Shown here: one piece after another, positions 3,900-19,021 of the stretch | How the letters are laid out: each line of letters starts with the position of its first letter | Position numbering within the stretch: the stretch's first letter is position 1 | NCBI GenBank assembly: GCA_003478355.1 | Contig: QUFC01000046.1 | Location: forward strand, 1 to 31,874 | Direction: 5' to 3' | DNA: 31,874 nucleotides | Origin: Lachnospiraceae bacterium AM48-27BH | GTDB taxonomy: Bacteria; Bacillota; Clostridia; Lachnospirales; Lachnospiraceae | Program-made: the position numbers and the translations under genes | Notes under the pieces: generated by a model | Seen by the model: only the letters and a program-made list of their open reading frames with translations | Told to the model about the DNA's origin: nothing | The model's database searches: none

Positions 3900-4769
3900 C
3901 TAGTTACTCATTGGATCAATAAAATCACGGATGCCATCGCCCAACAGGTTCAGGCCAAGAACCGTAACCGCTGTGAAAATACCAGGAAAAACTACCATCC
4001 ACCATGCATTGTAGATCACGGATTTTCCTTCATTTAAAATATTTCCCCAGCTGGGTGCCGGAGCCGGAACACCAGCTCCCAGAAAGCTCAATGCTGCTTC
4101 CGTGATGATGGAAGAAGCAAATACAAATGTTACCTGGACAATGATCGGGGAAAGGATATTCGGCGCCATATGCTTCCACATAATGCGGGATTTCTTCGCA
4201 CCGAGACACCGCATTGCCTCGATATAAGTCTGTTCCTTTACCACCAGTGCCTGGCCTCTTGCCAGTCTTGCCATGTTTGGGATATTGACCACGATCAGGC
4301 TGATGATCACATTTTTAATATCTGCACCCAGTACTGTCATCAAGGTAATGGCAAGTAAGGTACTTGGAATGGCCTTCAGGCCATCACAGATCCGCATGAG
4401 AATATTATCTGCCACTTTATTGGTGCTTGCATAAAGTCCGATGATAATTCCTGCAATTCCCGCGGTAATTCCTACGGTAAAACCAACCGTAAGAGAAATC
4501 CTCGCTCCATATAATACACGGGCAAACACATCTCTTCCCATGGTGTCGGTTCCAAACCAGTGGTCTGCGCTGCATCCCTGGAGACGCCTCTTGACATCCA
4601 GCGCCAGCGGATCATACCTGCAGATCAGGGGAGCCAGCACTGCCAACAGAATCATCACCGTAACCACCACAAGACCAAACACAGACGCTTTATTTTTTGT
4701 AAACTTCCGGATCCGGATTTCGCGTTGTTCCTTTTCCAGTCGTTTTTTTAACTCTTCCATGTCACCCAT
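3900..4769 (-). CDS. oppC: Oligopeptide ABC transporter permease, OppC/DppC-like
   Basis: Inner-membrane permease subunit. A cytoplasmic charged N-terminus (KKRLEKEQREIRIRKF) precedes the first membrane helix. The family N-terminal segment (PLICRYDPLALD, HWFGTDTMGRDVFARVLYGARISL) and the EAA loop (EAMRCLGAKKSRIMWKHMAPN) are clear, with about six membrane segments. The frame has a GTG at 4778, but AGGTGA lies between it and the ATG at 4769, so 4769 is preferred (289 residues); ATG 4760 is also possible. It sits 20 bp after the OppB-like gene. Confidence 0.92.
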   Translation of the reverse strand: MGDMEELKKRLEKEQREIRIRKFTKNKASVFGLVVVTVMILLAVLAPLICRYDPLALDVKRRLQGCSADHWFGTDTMGRDVFARVLYGARISLTVGFTVGITAGIAGIIIGLYASTNKVADNILMRICDGLKAIPSTLLAITLMTVLGADIKNVIISLIVVNIPNMARLARGQALVVKEQTYIEAMRCLGAKKSRIMWKHMAPNILSPIIVQVTFVFASSIITEAALSFLGAGVPAPAPSWGNILNEGKSVIYNAWWMVVFPGIFTAVTVLGLNLLGDGIRDFIDPMSN

Positions 4770-4789
4770 GTTTCTCACCTGCCTTTTAT

Positions 4790-5734
4790 TTAACTGACTC
4801 TTACTCTCGGATCTACAAATCCATACAAAATATCAATGATCATATTGATGACAACGTTGATCACCGCGATCAGGAGGACGATAGCCTGGATCACGTAATA
4901 ATCACGGCGGCCGATGGAATTGACCATCAGCTGTCCAAGTCCCGGAACTGCAAATAAGCTTTCTACCACCGCTGCGCCGGATAAGGCCTGGACAATACTC
5001 TGCCCAAAGATGGTGATCAAGATTACCAGTGTATTTTTGAACGCATGCTTGGTAAGCAGGGAAAACTCTTTTACACCTTTTGCCTTTGCCATCTTAATAT
5101 AATCACTGCCAAGAACCTCTAACATGGAAGCTCTGGTCATACGCATCATCAATGCTGCATTCATAAATCCCAAAGCAATCGCCGGTAATGTCAGCGAGCG
5201 GATATGCTCCAGAAATCCTTCACTGATCTCTTTATAACCGGAAACCGGAAAAATACGAAATTTAACTGAAAATAGCAACATCAGGAAAAGTCCCAGCAGG
5301 AAGCTCGGGAGTGAAATTCCTGCAAGGGAGATGACGGATACCACATGATCGACCGCAGAGCCTTTTTTTCTGGAAGCGATCATTCCTAACGGAATTGCGA
5401 TCACTGCTGCGATTACCAGTGCGTAGATAGCCAGAGAAATGGTCGGACGGATGTGGCTGATGATCAGAGAGCCAACGGTCTCATTATTTACCACACTCAT
5501 TCCAAAATCACCATGGAAAATATTGCCGATCCAGATGAAATACTGTTCGATCAATGGTTTATCCAGGCCCATCCGTATCCGGAGGGCCGCGATATCTTCT
5601 TCAGTTGCCAGGTCGCCCAGCATTGCGGTTGCCGGGTCACCTGGAACCAGATGAATCAATGAAAAAATGACAATTGATACAATGATTAATACAGGTATGA
5701 CGGAAATGATTCGTTTTGCAATGAATCGCTTCAT
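4790..5734 (-). CDS. oppB: Oligopeptide ABC transporter permease, OppB/DppB-like
   Basis: 314-residue membrane permease. The N-terminal helix (RIISVIPVLIIVSIVIFSLI), the HLVPGDPA motif and the EAA loop (SDYIKMAKAKGVKEFSLLTKHAFKN) are typical of OppB/DppB. It pairs with the OppC-like protein to form the channel. AAGGAGG lies 7 nt before the ATG at 5734. The binding-protein gene ends 31 bp upstream, so the order is A-B-C-D-F, the classic opp arrangement. Confidence 0.93.
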   Translation of the reverse strand: MKRFIAKRIISVIPVLIIVSIVIFSLIHLVPGDPATAMLGDLATEEDIAALRIRMGLDKPLIEQYFIWIGNIFHGDFGMSVVNNETVGSLIISHIRPTISLAIYALVIAAVIAIPLGMIASRKKGSAVDHVVSVISLAGISLPSFLLGLFLMLLFSVKFRIFPVSGYKEISEGFLEHIRSLTLPAIALGFMNAALMMRMTRASMLEVLGSDYIKMAKAKGVKEFSLLTKHAFKNTLVILITIFGQSIVQALSGAAVVESLFAVPGLGQLMVNSIGRRDYYVIQAIVLLIAVINVVINMIIDILYGFVDPRVRVS

Positions 5735-5765
5735 AGACCATCCTCCTTGTTACCTACGAGTATTT

Positions 5766-7406
5766 TTATTCCTTAATTCCGGCGTTATAGAATTTTGGAC
5801 CGCCGCTGTACATATTCACACCCTCCAGATCTTTATCCATGGCAAACATTCCAAGATAATGACCTGGGCAGATGATTGGAAGATATTCCCAGGAATAGCC
5901 CTGTAACTCATCCCATTTGGCTTTTGCGTCATCCAGAGTTGTTGCAGATGTCATTTCGCTAAACAGAGTTGACAATTTTTCATCATCAGACCAGCCCGGA
6001 TAAGCGCTGCCATAATAAAGCTTTAAGGATGGAACCGGAACCTCTGCAAATGTGGTAATGTACATATCATACAAACTTGGATCTTTCCGGTAATCCGTTA
6101 AGGTTGCCCAGTCTACAATGGTCAATTCCACAGGAACACCAATTTCTTCCAGTTCAGATTTTAATACCACTGCCATACTGTCCATTTTATTTAAAGTAGC
6201 AGCCAGGATACGGAAAGTACTTCCGTCATAACCGCCCTCTGCCAGGATCTCTTTGGCCTTTTCCGGATCATGAAGGTTATAATTCTCACTTCCGGCTTCA
6301 CTTGCCCAGAATGGCTGACCTGCATCCATGTAGCAGGAACCTAATTCATATCCACTGCCAAAGCAGGAGGTTAATACTTCGTCACAATCAATTGCAGTGT
6401 TGACTGCAGTACGGAAATACTGTTCTGCGCCAAGGCCTTCTTTGTGGTTAAAGATAAATGCGATGGAACCCATCTGTGTTCTGGATGTAGTCAGCTCCGG
6501 ATTTGCTTCCAGTCTCGCATAATCATCATCCTTTACATTGAAAATGCAGTCATACTGTCCGGCCTCGATACCCGCTGTAGCGGTTGCCTGATCCGGAACA
6601 ATATCAAATTCCAGGGTCTTGGTCGGTGCTGCTTTATAACCTGCCCAGCCGTCCATCGGATCGCCCTCAGTTCCGTATGGAACATAATCATCAAAGCGAT
6701 CCAGTCTCACGTACTGATCCTGTTTCCACTCTGTAAATTTATATGGACCGGTTCCAATGTAATTCTTTAAGAATCCGTTGGAATCCTCATCTGCACAGGC
6801 TTCTGCTGTTGTGATGGCTGCTGGCTGTGCTGCACCGGCGATCATAGCCGGCAGCAGGATCAGAGGTGTTTCACCTACGATCTTAACGGTGTAATCATCA
6901 ACCTTTTCAAATCTTGCATCGCCTACCATATTGCCTGCGGAACTGAAGCCCTCCAGCCAGCGGTTCATGGATGCGACAACATCATCTGCGGTCATCTCGC
7001 TGCCGTCATGGAACTTCACACCTTTTCGAAGTACAAAGGTGATGGTCTTGCCATCTTCACTGACCTCGTAGCTTTCACACAATTCCGGAACCGCTTCTGC
7101 CTTTGCGTTCAAGGTAACTAATTTTTCAAACACGGTTCCATCGCACATCTGACGTGCGATCAGAGTACTGTTTTTGTGAAGATCCAGAGATGGAGCCTGC
7201 TGGGAAACTGCGATATGTAATGTCTCTTTGTAAGTAGCATTGGGATCTGCCACAGCTGCTGCAGTTGTGTCTGCCGCTGTAGTATCCGCTGCTCCAGCGG
7301 TGGTGCTTCCTGCTTCTGAAGATGTGCTGCTTCCGCCGCCACATGCAGTCAGTGACATCAATGCGGCCATTGCCAGTGCCATTGCGCGTAAATGTTTTTT
7401 CTTCAT
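5766..7406 (-). CDS. oppA: Peptide ABC transporter substrate-binding lipoprotein (SBP family 5)
   Basis: 546-residue extracytoplasmic binding protein. The N-terminus has a basic stretch, a hydrophobic core and the lipobox LTAC with Cys22 as the predicted lipidated residue. A Ser/Thr/Ala-rich linker follows to about residue 50. The body has SBP_bac_5 features such as VLRKGVKFHDGSEMTADDVV and GTGPYKFTEWK. It captures peptides outside the membrane for the OppBCDF-like transporter encoded after it. A GAGGAGG-type ribosome site precedes the ATG at 7406. Expression is probably set by the promoter at 7538-7566 and the leader hairpin between them. Substrate class (dipeptide, oligopeptide, other) is not deducible. 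Confidence 0.93.
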   Translation of the reverse strand: MKKKHLRAMALAMAALMSLTACGGGSSTSSEAGSTTAGAADTTAADTTAAAVADPNATYKETLHIAVSQQAPSLDLHKNSTLIARQMCDGTVFEKLVTLNAKAEAVPELCESYEVSEDGKTITFVLRKGVKFHDGSEMTADDVVASMNRWLEGFSSAGNMVGDARFEKVDDYTVKIVGETPLILLPAMIAGAAQPAAITTAEACADEDSNGFLKNYIGTGPYKFTEWKQDQYVRLDRFDDYVPYGTEGDPMDGWAGYKAAPTKTLEFDIVPDQATATAGIEAGQYDCIFNVKDDDYARLEANPELTTSRTQMGSIAFIFNHKEGLGAEQYFRTAVNTAIDCDEVLTSCFGSGYELGSCYMDAGQPFWASEAGSENYNLHDPEKAKEILAEGGYDGSTFRILAATLNKMDSMAVVLKSELEEIGVPVELTIVDWATLTDYRKDPSLYDMYITTFAEVPVPSLKLYYGSAYPGWSDDEKLSTLFSEMTSATTLDDAKAKWDELQGYSWEYLPIICPGHYLGMFAMDKDLEGVNMYSGGPKFYNAGIKE

Positions 7407-15492: not shown

Positions 15493-15999
15493 TCACCTGC
15501 GCATCTGGGACTTTGTATCTTCTTTATGGTATTTTTCACGATACAATTGAATCTTCTTCTCTACAAGTTTTTCCCCTTCATACCTCAACTTAATAGAGAA
15601 AAACCTCTCTTCTCCAGAAAGCAGAAGATCAAGAAACACCCGGTCTCCCTCCCAGGTGGGAAGCTGCGGCACCATAGCTTTATCAACCCAGCAGAGATTT
15701 CCCTCATTACATTCCATCAATTCACCGCTATATCCGTCCGCCGTATATACGAACATCAGTTCGGATTCGTATTGACTGTTTAAAAATGTTACCAGACCGC
15801 GAAGTTGATAAGACGTCAGTGTTAAACCAGTCTCCTCCTTCACTTCCCGAACCAGACACTCTTCCGGTGTTTCCTGCTCTTCTACATGACCGCCAACTCC
15901 GATCCATTTGCCTTCGTTCATATCATGGTGTTTTTTGACGCGGTGAAGCATCAAATACTGATTGTTGTGTTCGATGTAGCATAAAGTCGTTATTACCAT
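15493..15999 (-). CDS. NUDIX hydrolase (MutT-like)
   Basis: 168-residue cytoplasmic hydrolase of nucleoside diphosphates linked to another moiety. The Nudix box is present: GGHVEEQETPEECLVREVKEETG (shown here only as the family signature G..E.....A/C..RE..EE.G), at about residues 36-58. MVITTLCYIEHNNQYLMLHR is the usual N-terminal strand. The frame runs to 16035, but GAAGG lies 7 nt before the ATG at 15999. It resembles MutT/8-oxo-dGTP-type clostridial proteins; the exact substrate is unknown. Confidence 0.85.
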   Translation of the reverse strand: MVITTLCYIEHNNQYLMLHRVKKHHDMNEGKWIGVGGHVEEQETPEECLVREVKEETGLTLTSYQLRGLVTFLNSQYESELMFVYTADGYSGELMECNEGNLCWVDKAMVPQLPTWEGDRVFLDLLLSGEERFFSIKLRYEGEKLVEKKIQLYREKYHKEDTKSQMRR

Positions 16000-16058
16000 A
16001 CTTTTTCCTTCTATAATTTTTTCTATTTTATACAATCAATGGCTGTACTTTATCCCAT

Positions 16059-17087
16059 TTATATCTGTAAATTTTCGGCATATTGAAATGATATAATATC
16101 TCTAAGCGATGTTTGCAAGTATGCCTGTTCTTTATGCATAAAATCGACGATTTCATTTGTACTCATCGTTCCGATTTTTTCTATTACAATATCCAAAATT
16201 TTTATATCCTCATTTGAAAGTGACAAAAACTTTTGTTCACCGTTTAATAAAAAATGATATGCGTTGGTTTCACCCATATCAACCTCTTCGCAAGGAACAT
16301 CTTTTAAATCAATAATCGAATTATGCCCTACAGGAACAGCCCCCATTGGCAGTGCTTGATATACTAACCCAGTAATTGCAAAGCCTCTCTTTTTATAAGA
16401 TAAAGCATCTGCGTACCACATTAATTTCATAAGCTTTACTTTATATAAATTTGTAACCTTCAGTGAAGCTGCAAAATATCTAATTACATCTACCACTTTA
16501 TCAAGAGAAAGTTCCGTGTTACCTTGAAATAATGAATTTCCCTGATATTTTACATAATTAGCTGAGATTGCCTTTCTTAAATAACAGTCTTGATCTTTTT
16601 CAAATAGAACAGTTGCCGCTTTTAAATATTTTTGATAGGATTCTGGAGACAAATTTTCTTTTGCATCATTGAGCAATGACAAAAACCATTCTGGATCATT
16701 ACCAATTTTTTTTAAAATCGTATTATGGGCTTTATCCTGTACTTGATGGCTTTCATATCGGGTGATTGTTTTACCTCCCCAGCCAAGCAGCAAGCATAAA
16801 TCCCCCTGACTGATGCCATACTTTGCCCGAATGTCCCGGATCTGGCCAGATGTTAAGAGACCTTCTTTTTTTCTGTATGCATCTTTTAAACAGATATCGT
16901 TCTCTTTCATCTGCCGTTCATCCATATATAACTCATCTGTTGCATCACAATACCAGTATAATGCCTCATATTCAAGTTTGCTGTTTTTAAATGTGGCTTG
17001 TTCCTTCATAAGAATTGTCTTTACTTCGTGTTCTTCCATACAACATGGACACAATTTTTTTTCACTCTTTACCACTTTCATATCCAT
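16059..17087 (-). CDS. MqsA-like antitoxin with C-terminal Panacea (DUF4065) domain
   Basis: 342 residues in three parts. (1) Zinc-finger-like N-terminus with C13-x-x-C16 (LCPCC) and a single later Cys (WYCDATDELY, Cys47), so the second CxxC of E. coli MqsA is degenerate. (2) Helix-turn-helix at about 80-112 (IRDIRAKYGISQGDLCLLLG, then TRYE), matching the MqsA/Xre DNA-binding part. (3) C-terminal Panacea/SocA-like domain at about 190-340 (DVIRYFAASLKVTNLYKVKL, MKLMWYADAL, GLVYQALPMGAVP), known as an antitoxin module paired with many toxins. AGGAGG lies before the ATG. It follows the toxin-like gene by 11 bp, in the toxin-first order of mqsRA. Expected role: neutralise the toxin and repress the operon. 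Confidence 0.8.
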   Translation of the reverse strand: MDMKVVKSEKKLCPCCMEEHEVKTILMKEQATFKNSKLEYEALYWYCDATDELYMDERQMKENDICLKDAYRKKEGLLTSGQIRDIRAKYGISQGDLCLLLGWGGKTITRYESHQVQDKAHNTILKKIGNDPEWFLSLLNDAKENLSPESYQKYLKAATVLFEKDQDCYLRKAISANYVKYQGNSLFQGNTELSLDKVVDVIRYFAASLKVTNLYKVKLMKLMWYADALSYKKRGFAITGLVYQALPMGAVPVGHNSIIDLKDVPCEEVDMGETNAYHFLLNGEQKFLSLSNEDIKILDIVIEKIGTMSTNEIVDFMHKEQAYLQTSLRDIISFQYAENLQI

Positions 17088-17098
17088 GAAAACACCTC

Positions 17099-17539
17099 CT
17101 AATTCTTTCTATATGGGAACATTTCAGGTGTAAATGGTTTTTCAGCGAAATGAAATGACATCACAAATGTTGTTGTGTTCCCATACATTCCTAATAACTC
17201 TACTCTTATTTTAATATATACATCTTCCGTTCCATTATAAACCTTGCCAAATTCCCGCATTTCGCTTCTCTTTAGAAAACGTAGATCTTTTACTGTACGT
17301 ATATAATCATCAACAGATAACTTTAATAACTCACGTCTCAATGCATCTTCAGGATTTTCGTTTGGAAATAATGCATTGACTGTATACTGATTTGTATATC
17401 TTTCCTCACGTTTTTTATCAACAAGTCTTCTTACCTGAAAATTAATCCTTGCTCCATGATCAAGTGCAAATTTTAACTTTTGTATGTATGTTTTGACCTC
17501 TAACTCACTTTCAATTCGTGATTTTGTCTCATCTGCCAA
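17099..17539 (-). CDS. MqsR-like toxin (TTG start)
   Basis: 146 residues, soluble and basic. The C-terminal half has the MqsR-type pattern: LKLSVDDYIRTVKDLRF, a short linker, EDVYIKIRVELL and FVMSFHFAEKP. MqsR proteins are RelE-fold mRNA interferases. The open frame reaches 17617, but the ATG at 17579-17581 lies inside the -10 box of the promoter, so it cannot start translation from that promoter. The TTG at 17537-17539 has GGAGG 8 nt upstream and gives a leader of about 30 nt. E. coli MqsR has 98 residues, so this form has an N-terminal extension. The pairing with an MqsA-like antitoxin supports the call; activity is not shown. Confidence 0.68.
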   Translation of the reverse strand: MADETKSRIESELEVKTYIQKLKFALDHGARINFQVRRLVDKKREERYTNQYTVNALFPNENPEDALRRELLKLSVDDYIRTVKDLRFLKRSEMREFGKVYNGTEDVYIKIRVELLGMYGNTTTFVMSFHFAEKPFTPEMFPYRKN

Positions 17540-17558
17540 ATTTACACCCTCCAATATG

Positions 17559-17605
17559 GTATCATTTGATACTTTTATCATAGAACTTCTTTCTGTATTT
17601 GTCAA
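17559..17605 (-). promoter_or_regulatory. Consensus promoter and palindromic operator of the toxin-antitoxin operon
   Basis: On the minus strand TTGACA (17600-17605), 17 nt, TATGAT (17577-17582). Just downstream is the perfect palindrome GTATCATTTGATAC (17559-17572), which covers the predicted start site. A repressor bound there would block RNA polymerase, fitting autorepression by the HTH antitoxin. Confidence 0.75.
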
Positions 17606-17618
17606 ACAAAAAATCAAG

Positions 17619-17807: not shown

Positions 17808-18928
17808 TTATCTGCCCCAGACTTCTTCCGCTACTTCTTTCACCAGTCTCATCTTCGCCCACTGCTCCTCTTCTGTCAGCTTGTTGCCGATCTCGCAGGA
17901 GGCGAATCCGCACTGCGGACTTAAGTACAAACGATCCAGCGGAACGTATTTTGCCGCTTCATGGATCCGGCTAATGACCACCTGCTTGTCCTCCAGAACC
18001 GGGGATTTGGTGGTGATCAGACCCAGAACCACCTTTTTTCACCAGACACTTTAGCAAGCGGAGCAAAACCACCAGAACGTTCATCGTCATACTCTAAGAA
18101 GTAGGCATTGACATGTTCCTCTCCGAACAGGATATCCGCTACGGAGTCATAAGCGCCCTCGCTTGCGTAGGTCGAGTGGAAATTGCCGCGGCAGACATGG
18201 GTGTTGATGATCATATCCTTCGGCGCATTGGCGATCACACGGTTGTTGATGTCTTTATGGGATTTCTGGACTTCGATCAGACCTTCTCTGGTGGTTCCAT
18301 AAAGGATATGTCCGATCTTATCTGCGAACATTCCCCATGTGCAGTCATCTAACTGGATATTTCTGCAGCCTGCTGCATAAAGCTGATCGATCACCTTTCC
18401 ATATACCGCTACGATATCATCTGCCAGTTCTTCATCATTTGCGTAAACTTTCTCCGTGTGTTCCCGGTTAAATGGCATGGTGAACTGGGCAAGCATCTGG
18501 GCTGGTGCCGGCATGGTCTGTTTTGCCACCGTATTTTCATCTTCCAGGGCTTTGACGAAACGGAAATGATCGACAAACGGGTGCTCTTTTGACAGGTTGA
18601 TTTTTCCTATGATATAAGTGTCATCAACCATTGCTGCCTCTCCGTGAAATGGCAATCCTGTCTTGGTCGGCACATGACCAACACCATCAAATCCCCACAT
18701 GAAATCCAGATGCCAGGTGGCTCTGCGGAACTCGCCGTCCGTGATCACATGGTAACCAAGCTCTTTGATCTTCGCTGCCAGTTCCCGAATGCATTCATCC
18801 TCAACTACTTTTAATGCAGCATAGTCAATAGCTCCCTCATCGAACTGTCTTCTTGCTTTCTTTAATTTCTCCGGTCTTAAAAAGCTTCCTACAAAATCAT
18901 AACGGAATGGTGTCTGCAATTTGCTCAT
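17808..18928 (-). pseudogene. MetE-like cobalamin-independent methyltransferase (YxjG type), frameshifted
   Basis: Single-domain relative of the C-terminal half of MetE, which methylates homocysteine or a similar thiol. Zinc ligands are visible: His and Cys in NTHVCRGNF, Glu in FLEYDDERSGGF, and Cys in LSPQCGFAS. The substrate-binding start VGSFLRP is present. The first frame runs from the ATG at 18928 (GGAGG 8 nt away) to SGEK, then goes out of frame. The second frame continues VVLGLITTKSPVLEDKQVV to the stop at 17808. One missing base in the run of six T at 18034-18039 joins them into about 373 residues. A TATAAT -10 lies at 18983-18988. The LysR gene upstream may regulate it (inference). 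Confidence 0.78.
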
Positions 18929-19021
18929 ATTTATTTCCTCCATGTATCTTCATAATTTTTCTCTATCGGTGAATCTGTCGTTATTATATAGGAAGAAATG
19001 ATTTTTGAAAAATACAGAAAA

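Follow-up and report, generated by a model that had tools for sequence, protein, structure and literature searches.

How are toxin binding, operon repression and signal input divided in a toxin-antitoxin pair whose antitoxin unites a zinc finger, a helix-turn-helix (HTH) and a Panacea domain in one chain? This question is raised by a two-gene locus on the minus strand of a 31,874-base stretch of DNA from Lachnospiraceae bacterium AM48-27BH (contig QUFC01000046.1), which as a whole is called the window and supplies the coordinates used here. A sequence-only reading had proposed an MqsR-like toxin, paired with an antitoxin combining MqsA-type and Panacea parts under an autoregulated promoter. 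We consider it highly probable that the locus encodes a toxin of predicted MqsR fold and a finger-HTH-Panacea antitoxin, in which the finger silences the toxin, the HTH represses the operon and Panacea serves as an input module. The evidence for this consists of homology and fold prediction, of the conserved finger residues, operator and toxin start codon, and of the repeated exchange of the antitoxin tail.

The toxin gene comes first and is separated by an 11-bp gap (toxin stop 17099–17101, antitoxin ATG at 17087) from the antitoxin gene, in line with the earlier description. Conservation was assessed over 81 related loci, comprising 80 genome loci (of 84 found) and one viral contig. A finger-HTH gene adjoins the toxin in 76 of the 81, the pair thus being kept as a two-gene unit; among the remaining five, L023, L039 and L070 end at a contig edge, L049 holds a toxin remnant, and the fifth is L051. 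In L051, the toxin frame is shortened and no finger-HTH gene was found in the locus; the gene that follows, at about 4390–5800, is one we take to be transposase-like.

The predicted toxin structure displays the MqsR fold, with model residues 6–130 matching the E. coli MqsR chain over its full 97 residues in a structural alignment, which bears out the assignment as MqsR-like. Since the whole E. coli chain is matched in this way, the extra length of the window toxin is internal and C-terminal, and the N-terminal extension previously described is not confirmed; the alternative reading of 172 residues from TTG 17617 merely translates promoter and operator in addition. The MqsR toxin profile PF15723 gave no match at E ≤ 1, neither for the window toxin nor for any of the 34 rows (window included) of toxin alignment A2. 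Conserved motifs are Y108-I-K and MSFH (His130). Tyr108 is invariant in all 34 rows and aligns with the invariant Tyr of alignment A4, whose profile detects MqsR-like toxin parts, and we infer that it corresponds to active-site Y97 of Bacillus fungorum MqsR (PMC10440598). Among 120 listed database relatives of the toxin, each one with a printed name is a hypothetical protein. Judging from the model, the window toxin is likely an RNA-cutting protein of MqsR fold.

Profile searches confirmed that MqsA-type finger-HTH and Panacea parts lie in one 342-residue antitoxin: PF13274 (Panacea) reached 81.5 bits against a cut-off of 25.7, and TIGR03830, the NCBIfam model for MqsA, 98.5 bits against 61.8 over residues 13–137. 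The Pfam profiles for MqsR and MqsA gave no match above cut-off, with PF15723 silent and PF15731 (MqsA) at 21.5 bits below its cut-off of 30; HTH_3 likewise stayed below (16.2 bits, cut-off 23, E-value 0.011). The second zinc CxxC had rightly been called degenerate, C47 being all that is left of it: C13, C16 and C47 are present, the fourth zinc cysteine of the two-CxxC pattern is missing, and His20 is present. These four residues are invariant in 25 of 25 rows of antitoxin alignment A3, and the antitoxins of all 74 scorable loci (of 81) and all 120 database homologues likewise have the histidine and lack the fourth cysteine. The finger form was additionally scored in 31 distinct further proteins, those passing a script filter from 42 additional loci, of which 8 have the His form (at least two, from L113 and L123, duplicate antitoxins already counted), 23 have four cysteines and none is mixed. 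A tree from which the finger columns were left out (61 rows, few columns) groups the His form as a single clade with support of 100/99; the form therefore goes back to a single event and has been retained since. Because every scored protein pairs the lost cysteine with an invariant histidine, the degenerate CxxC is, judged by sequence, a fixed state of the clade and not decay, and the finger presumably holds zinc by three cysteines and one histidine (C3H).

It is conceivable, although unlikely, that zinc binding has been lost from the finger in this clade and that His20 is a toxin contact instead of a ligand. The four zinc cysteines are perfectly conserved in the MqsA set of PMC2791442 and one is lost here; moreover, since the change occurred once on the tree, the pairing of lost cysteine and gained histidine rests on one event. 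However, four potential ligands are retained in every scored protein, and the lack of mixed states among the 31 further proteins points in the same direction.

Panacea was matched in 67 of the 76 loci with a finger-HTH gene. Of the other nine, L002 and L015 break off at the edge of a contig, and for the remaining seven Panacea gave no match (L044, L045, L056, L057, L065, L074, L077). A SecB gene follows in L065 and L074 (PF02556, 8.2e-8 and 9.8e-8), which share the toxin subfamily of the window; L077 carries a second HTH, its toxin frame counting just 105 codons and possibly being broken; and for the tails of L044, L056 and L057 no family rose above its cut-off. Among four-cysteine relatives, L090 has an adjoining SecB gene, and L093 (231–2109, minus strand) encodes an MqsR toxin and an MqsA-type finger-HTH that shares its chain with a nucleotidyltransferase domain, a HEPN gene coming next; apparently two kinds of toxin-antitoxin system have merged there. 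Parsimony places 10 changes between Panacea and none on the tree, or 9 if L094, truncated within the gene by the end of its contig, is set aside; inside the His clade there are 6 (31 with, 6 without). Some of these exchanges may be assembly errors. Taken at sequence level, the tail could be a sensor of the plug-in type. That it is no sensor and merely a drifting stability or dimerisation part would agree with the predicted share of Panacea in homodimerisation of the L. rossiae antitoxin (PMC10440598) and with the loci L044, L045 and L057, which have no recognisable tail, but we hold this to be improbable, as in several cases a different whole module has taken its place (SecB gene, nucleotidyltransferase with HEPN gene, HTH) and Panacea contains many invariant columns in alignment A3. 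As a separate observation, a single 529-codon frame of L110 (892–2478, minus strand) holds MqsR-like, MqsA-like and Panacea parts (A4 profile, PF15731 and PF13274); it is a possible single-chain toxin-antitoxin, with a separate internal antitoxin start as the alternative.

Considerably less probable is that Panacea itself contacts and silences the toxin, as stand-alone Panacea domains do by direct neutralisation (PMC10440598), and that the finger, its fourth zinc cysteine lost, is a relic. Such a relic would hardly keep C13, C16, H20 and C47 in every row of alignment A3, and in 7 of the 76 loci an MqsA-type gene without Panacea stands beside the same toxin family and operator (with the reservation on the toxin frame of L077). 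In B. fungorum PanA, an antitoxin of the same finger-HTH-Panacea order, the isolated finger or finger-HTH neutralises MqsR, whereas Panacea alone or HTH-Panacea fails to do so (PMC10440598). The sequence-only reading had left it unclear which part binds the toxin; this dissection points to the finger.

The promoter was correctly recognised as TTGACA-17-TATGAT, with the −35 box at 17605–17600 and the −10 box at 17582–17577. Neither the upstream TTG at 17617 nor the ATG within the −10 box is usable from it, so the promoter position dictates the TTG start of the toxin, as had been argued. In loci aligned from residue 1, this start is TTG in 41 of 44 and ATG in 3, and the script-chosen antitoxin start is ATG in 36 of 42 loci. 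Start residues of database relatives of the toxin vary widely, and some longer predictions contain 'KVSNDT', which is the operator translated in that frame.

The likely operator is an inverted repeat that begins 4 bases past the −10 box, over the expected transcription start. Its 6-bp arms, GTATCA and TGATAC, enclose a two-base centre (TT/AA) that is not self-complementary in the window copy, so the palindrome is not the perfect one that had been described. The copy at 17559–17572 is the only exact one in the window, and a search of the window allowing up to two mismatches found 2 copies against 1.39 expected, not above chance. Across relatives, the repeat occurs far beyond chance: of the 77 loci (of 81) with at least 95 upstream bases, 70 carry an exact copy and 6 a copy with a single mismatch, while 1 lacks it (L049, the toxin remnant); the 561,666 positions elsewhere in the loci yielded no exact copy, 1 with one mismatch and 26 with two. 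This conservation supports the autoregulatory appearance of the promoter. The operator lies just downstream of the −10 box in 62 loci and just upstream of the −35 box in 14, with L081 included in both counts; L010 and L049 were left unplaced by the placement script, the upstream-region search putting L010 downstream of the −10 box. A tree of 29 rows (19 with one place and 10 with the other, the window entered by hand) calls for a single switch of place. In L063, L064, L067, L068 and L071, all with upstream operators, an ATG for the toxin is found only a few bases from the −10 box; a toxin message starting there would be nearly leaderless.

The core ATCA-NN-TGAT is also found upstream in 14 of 27 other MqsA-type loci, with 0.21 expected from dinucleotide shuffles. 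Of these 27, two (L101, L102) have the His form, and six, none with the core, had no toxin found as anchor. In L090, two exact copies are spaced by 55 bases, the distance between the usual registers +4 and −51. Since the core recurs in this way, the operator is tied to this group's finger-HTH pairs rather than to Panacea. Reading of the palindrome by a different regulator, for which the weak HTH_3 match could be invoked, is very improbable given that exact copies stand only upstream of the operon in the loci searched and that three of the 14 core-bearing loci (L090, L106, L114) have no Panacea match.

From its relatives, we infer the following working of the locus. The N-terminal finger, predicted to hold zinc, would bind and silence the toxin, and an HTH dimer would bind GTATCA-NN-TGATAC over the transcription start and turn the operon off. 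Because its gene starts with TTG, the toxin would be made at a lower rate than the antitoxin with its ATG. Panacea, the tail, is likely dispensable for neutralisation and repression and would serve as an input module, setting the toxin free in response to a signal. The pair, then, is real and well kept, and most likely works as an MqsRA system with a Panacea input module, function being understood here in this predicted sense.

More tentatively, the MqsR-finger-HTH-operator core might be a fixed chassis and the antitoxin C-terminus a socket that takes Panacea, a SecB-dependent tail, nucleotidyltransferase/HEPN, another HTH or no module at all, with Panacea as an in-cis counterpart of chaperone addiction and the clade (C3H finger, insert-bearing toxin, ATCA-NN-TGAT operator) as a new MqsRA branch. 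If so, the sensor idea becomes testable by natural swaps, as loci that agree in toxin family, finger, HTH and operator and have another tail or none constitute natural swap experiments. Operator and C3H finger together would also aid annotation in finding MqsRA pairs missed by Pfam.

The features of the locus are collected in Table 1. The gene adjoining the antitoxin (15493–16035, minus strand) appears, going by its motif, to encode a Nudix hydrolase. On the other side, overlapping minus-strand frames at 18017–18943 and 17808–18032 read like one protein divided over two frames, which we take to be methionine-synthase-like; this is either a broken gene or a sequencing error.

Table 1. Position, strand and supporting evidence of locus features in the window.
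Feature	Position	Strand	Evidence
Sigma-70-type promoter TTGACA-17-TATGAT	17577..17605	-	sequence; 17-base spacing also in most relatives
Likely operator GTATCA-AA-TGATAC (minus strand)	17559..17572	.	sequence and related upstream regions
Likely ribosome-binding site GGAGGG, 7 bases ahead of toxin TTG	17547..17552	-	sequence
Toxin gene, 146 residues, TTG start (17539-17537), divergent MqsR-type	17099..17539	-	
Antitoxin gene, 342 residues, finger, HTH, helical linker and Panacea	16059..17087	-	
First knuckle C13-x2-C16-x3-H20 (residues 13-20)	17028..17051	-	invariant across rows and proteins scored
Cys47, sole cysteine of second knuckle; residue 50 not Cys	16947..16949	-	antitoxin alignment and relatives
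HTH, about residues 80-141, likely operator reader	16665..16850	-	TIGR03830; HTH_3 below cut-off
Panacea (SocA-like, formerly DUF4065), residues 219-323	16119..16433	-	PF13274, 1.1e-22

The closest known systems are the MqsR_D2:PanA pairs of B. fungorum and Lactobacillus rossiae, likewise consisting of an MqsR toxin and a Panacea antitoxin (PMC10440598). Because that study dissected B. fungorum MqsR:PanA, whose domain order is identical, the composite is already known, contrary to the suggestion that it might be undescribed. The paper proposes Panacea as a sensor, leaves its role in finger-bearing antitoxins as an open question, and does not use the word 'operator' in its main text. E. coli MqsRA shares the toxin-first operon, MqsR fold, finger-HTH antitoxin and palindromic operator (PMC2791442, PMC4894380, PMC6918082), but its toxin has no insert, unlike the insert-bearing window toxin, and its MqsA has a four-cysteine finger and no Panacea, in contrast to the C3H-type finger and Panacea here. 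Its operator is AACCT(N)3AGGTT, the MqsA palindromes of E. coli and P. putida both being of ACCT(N)3AGGT type (PMC4894380; PMC5422877), as opposed to GTATCA-NN-TGATAC in the window. In PanAT systems, a Panacea antitoxin likewise adjoins a toxin gene and Panacea is the general antitoxin domain; MqsR-like proteins make up 90 of the 1,268 putative toxins encoded next to Panacea antitoxins, and the Herbaspirillum MqsR was toxic without rescue by its PanA (PMC8832971). The toxin-antitoxin-chaperone MqsRA of V. cholerae RC385 likewise has an MqsA-type antitoxin with a C-terminal add-on tied to another input, namely a graftable dependence on a SecB-like chaperone (PMC5105189), whereas the window add-on is Panacea in cis, although the window relatives L065 and L074 do carry a SecB gene. 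As far as the open-licence literature searched shows, four points are new here: the toxin's divergent branch, the finger of C3H type, the operator with its two places, and the tally of how often tails were exchanged on a single core.
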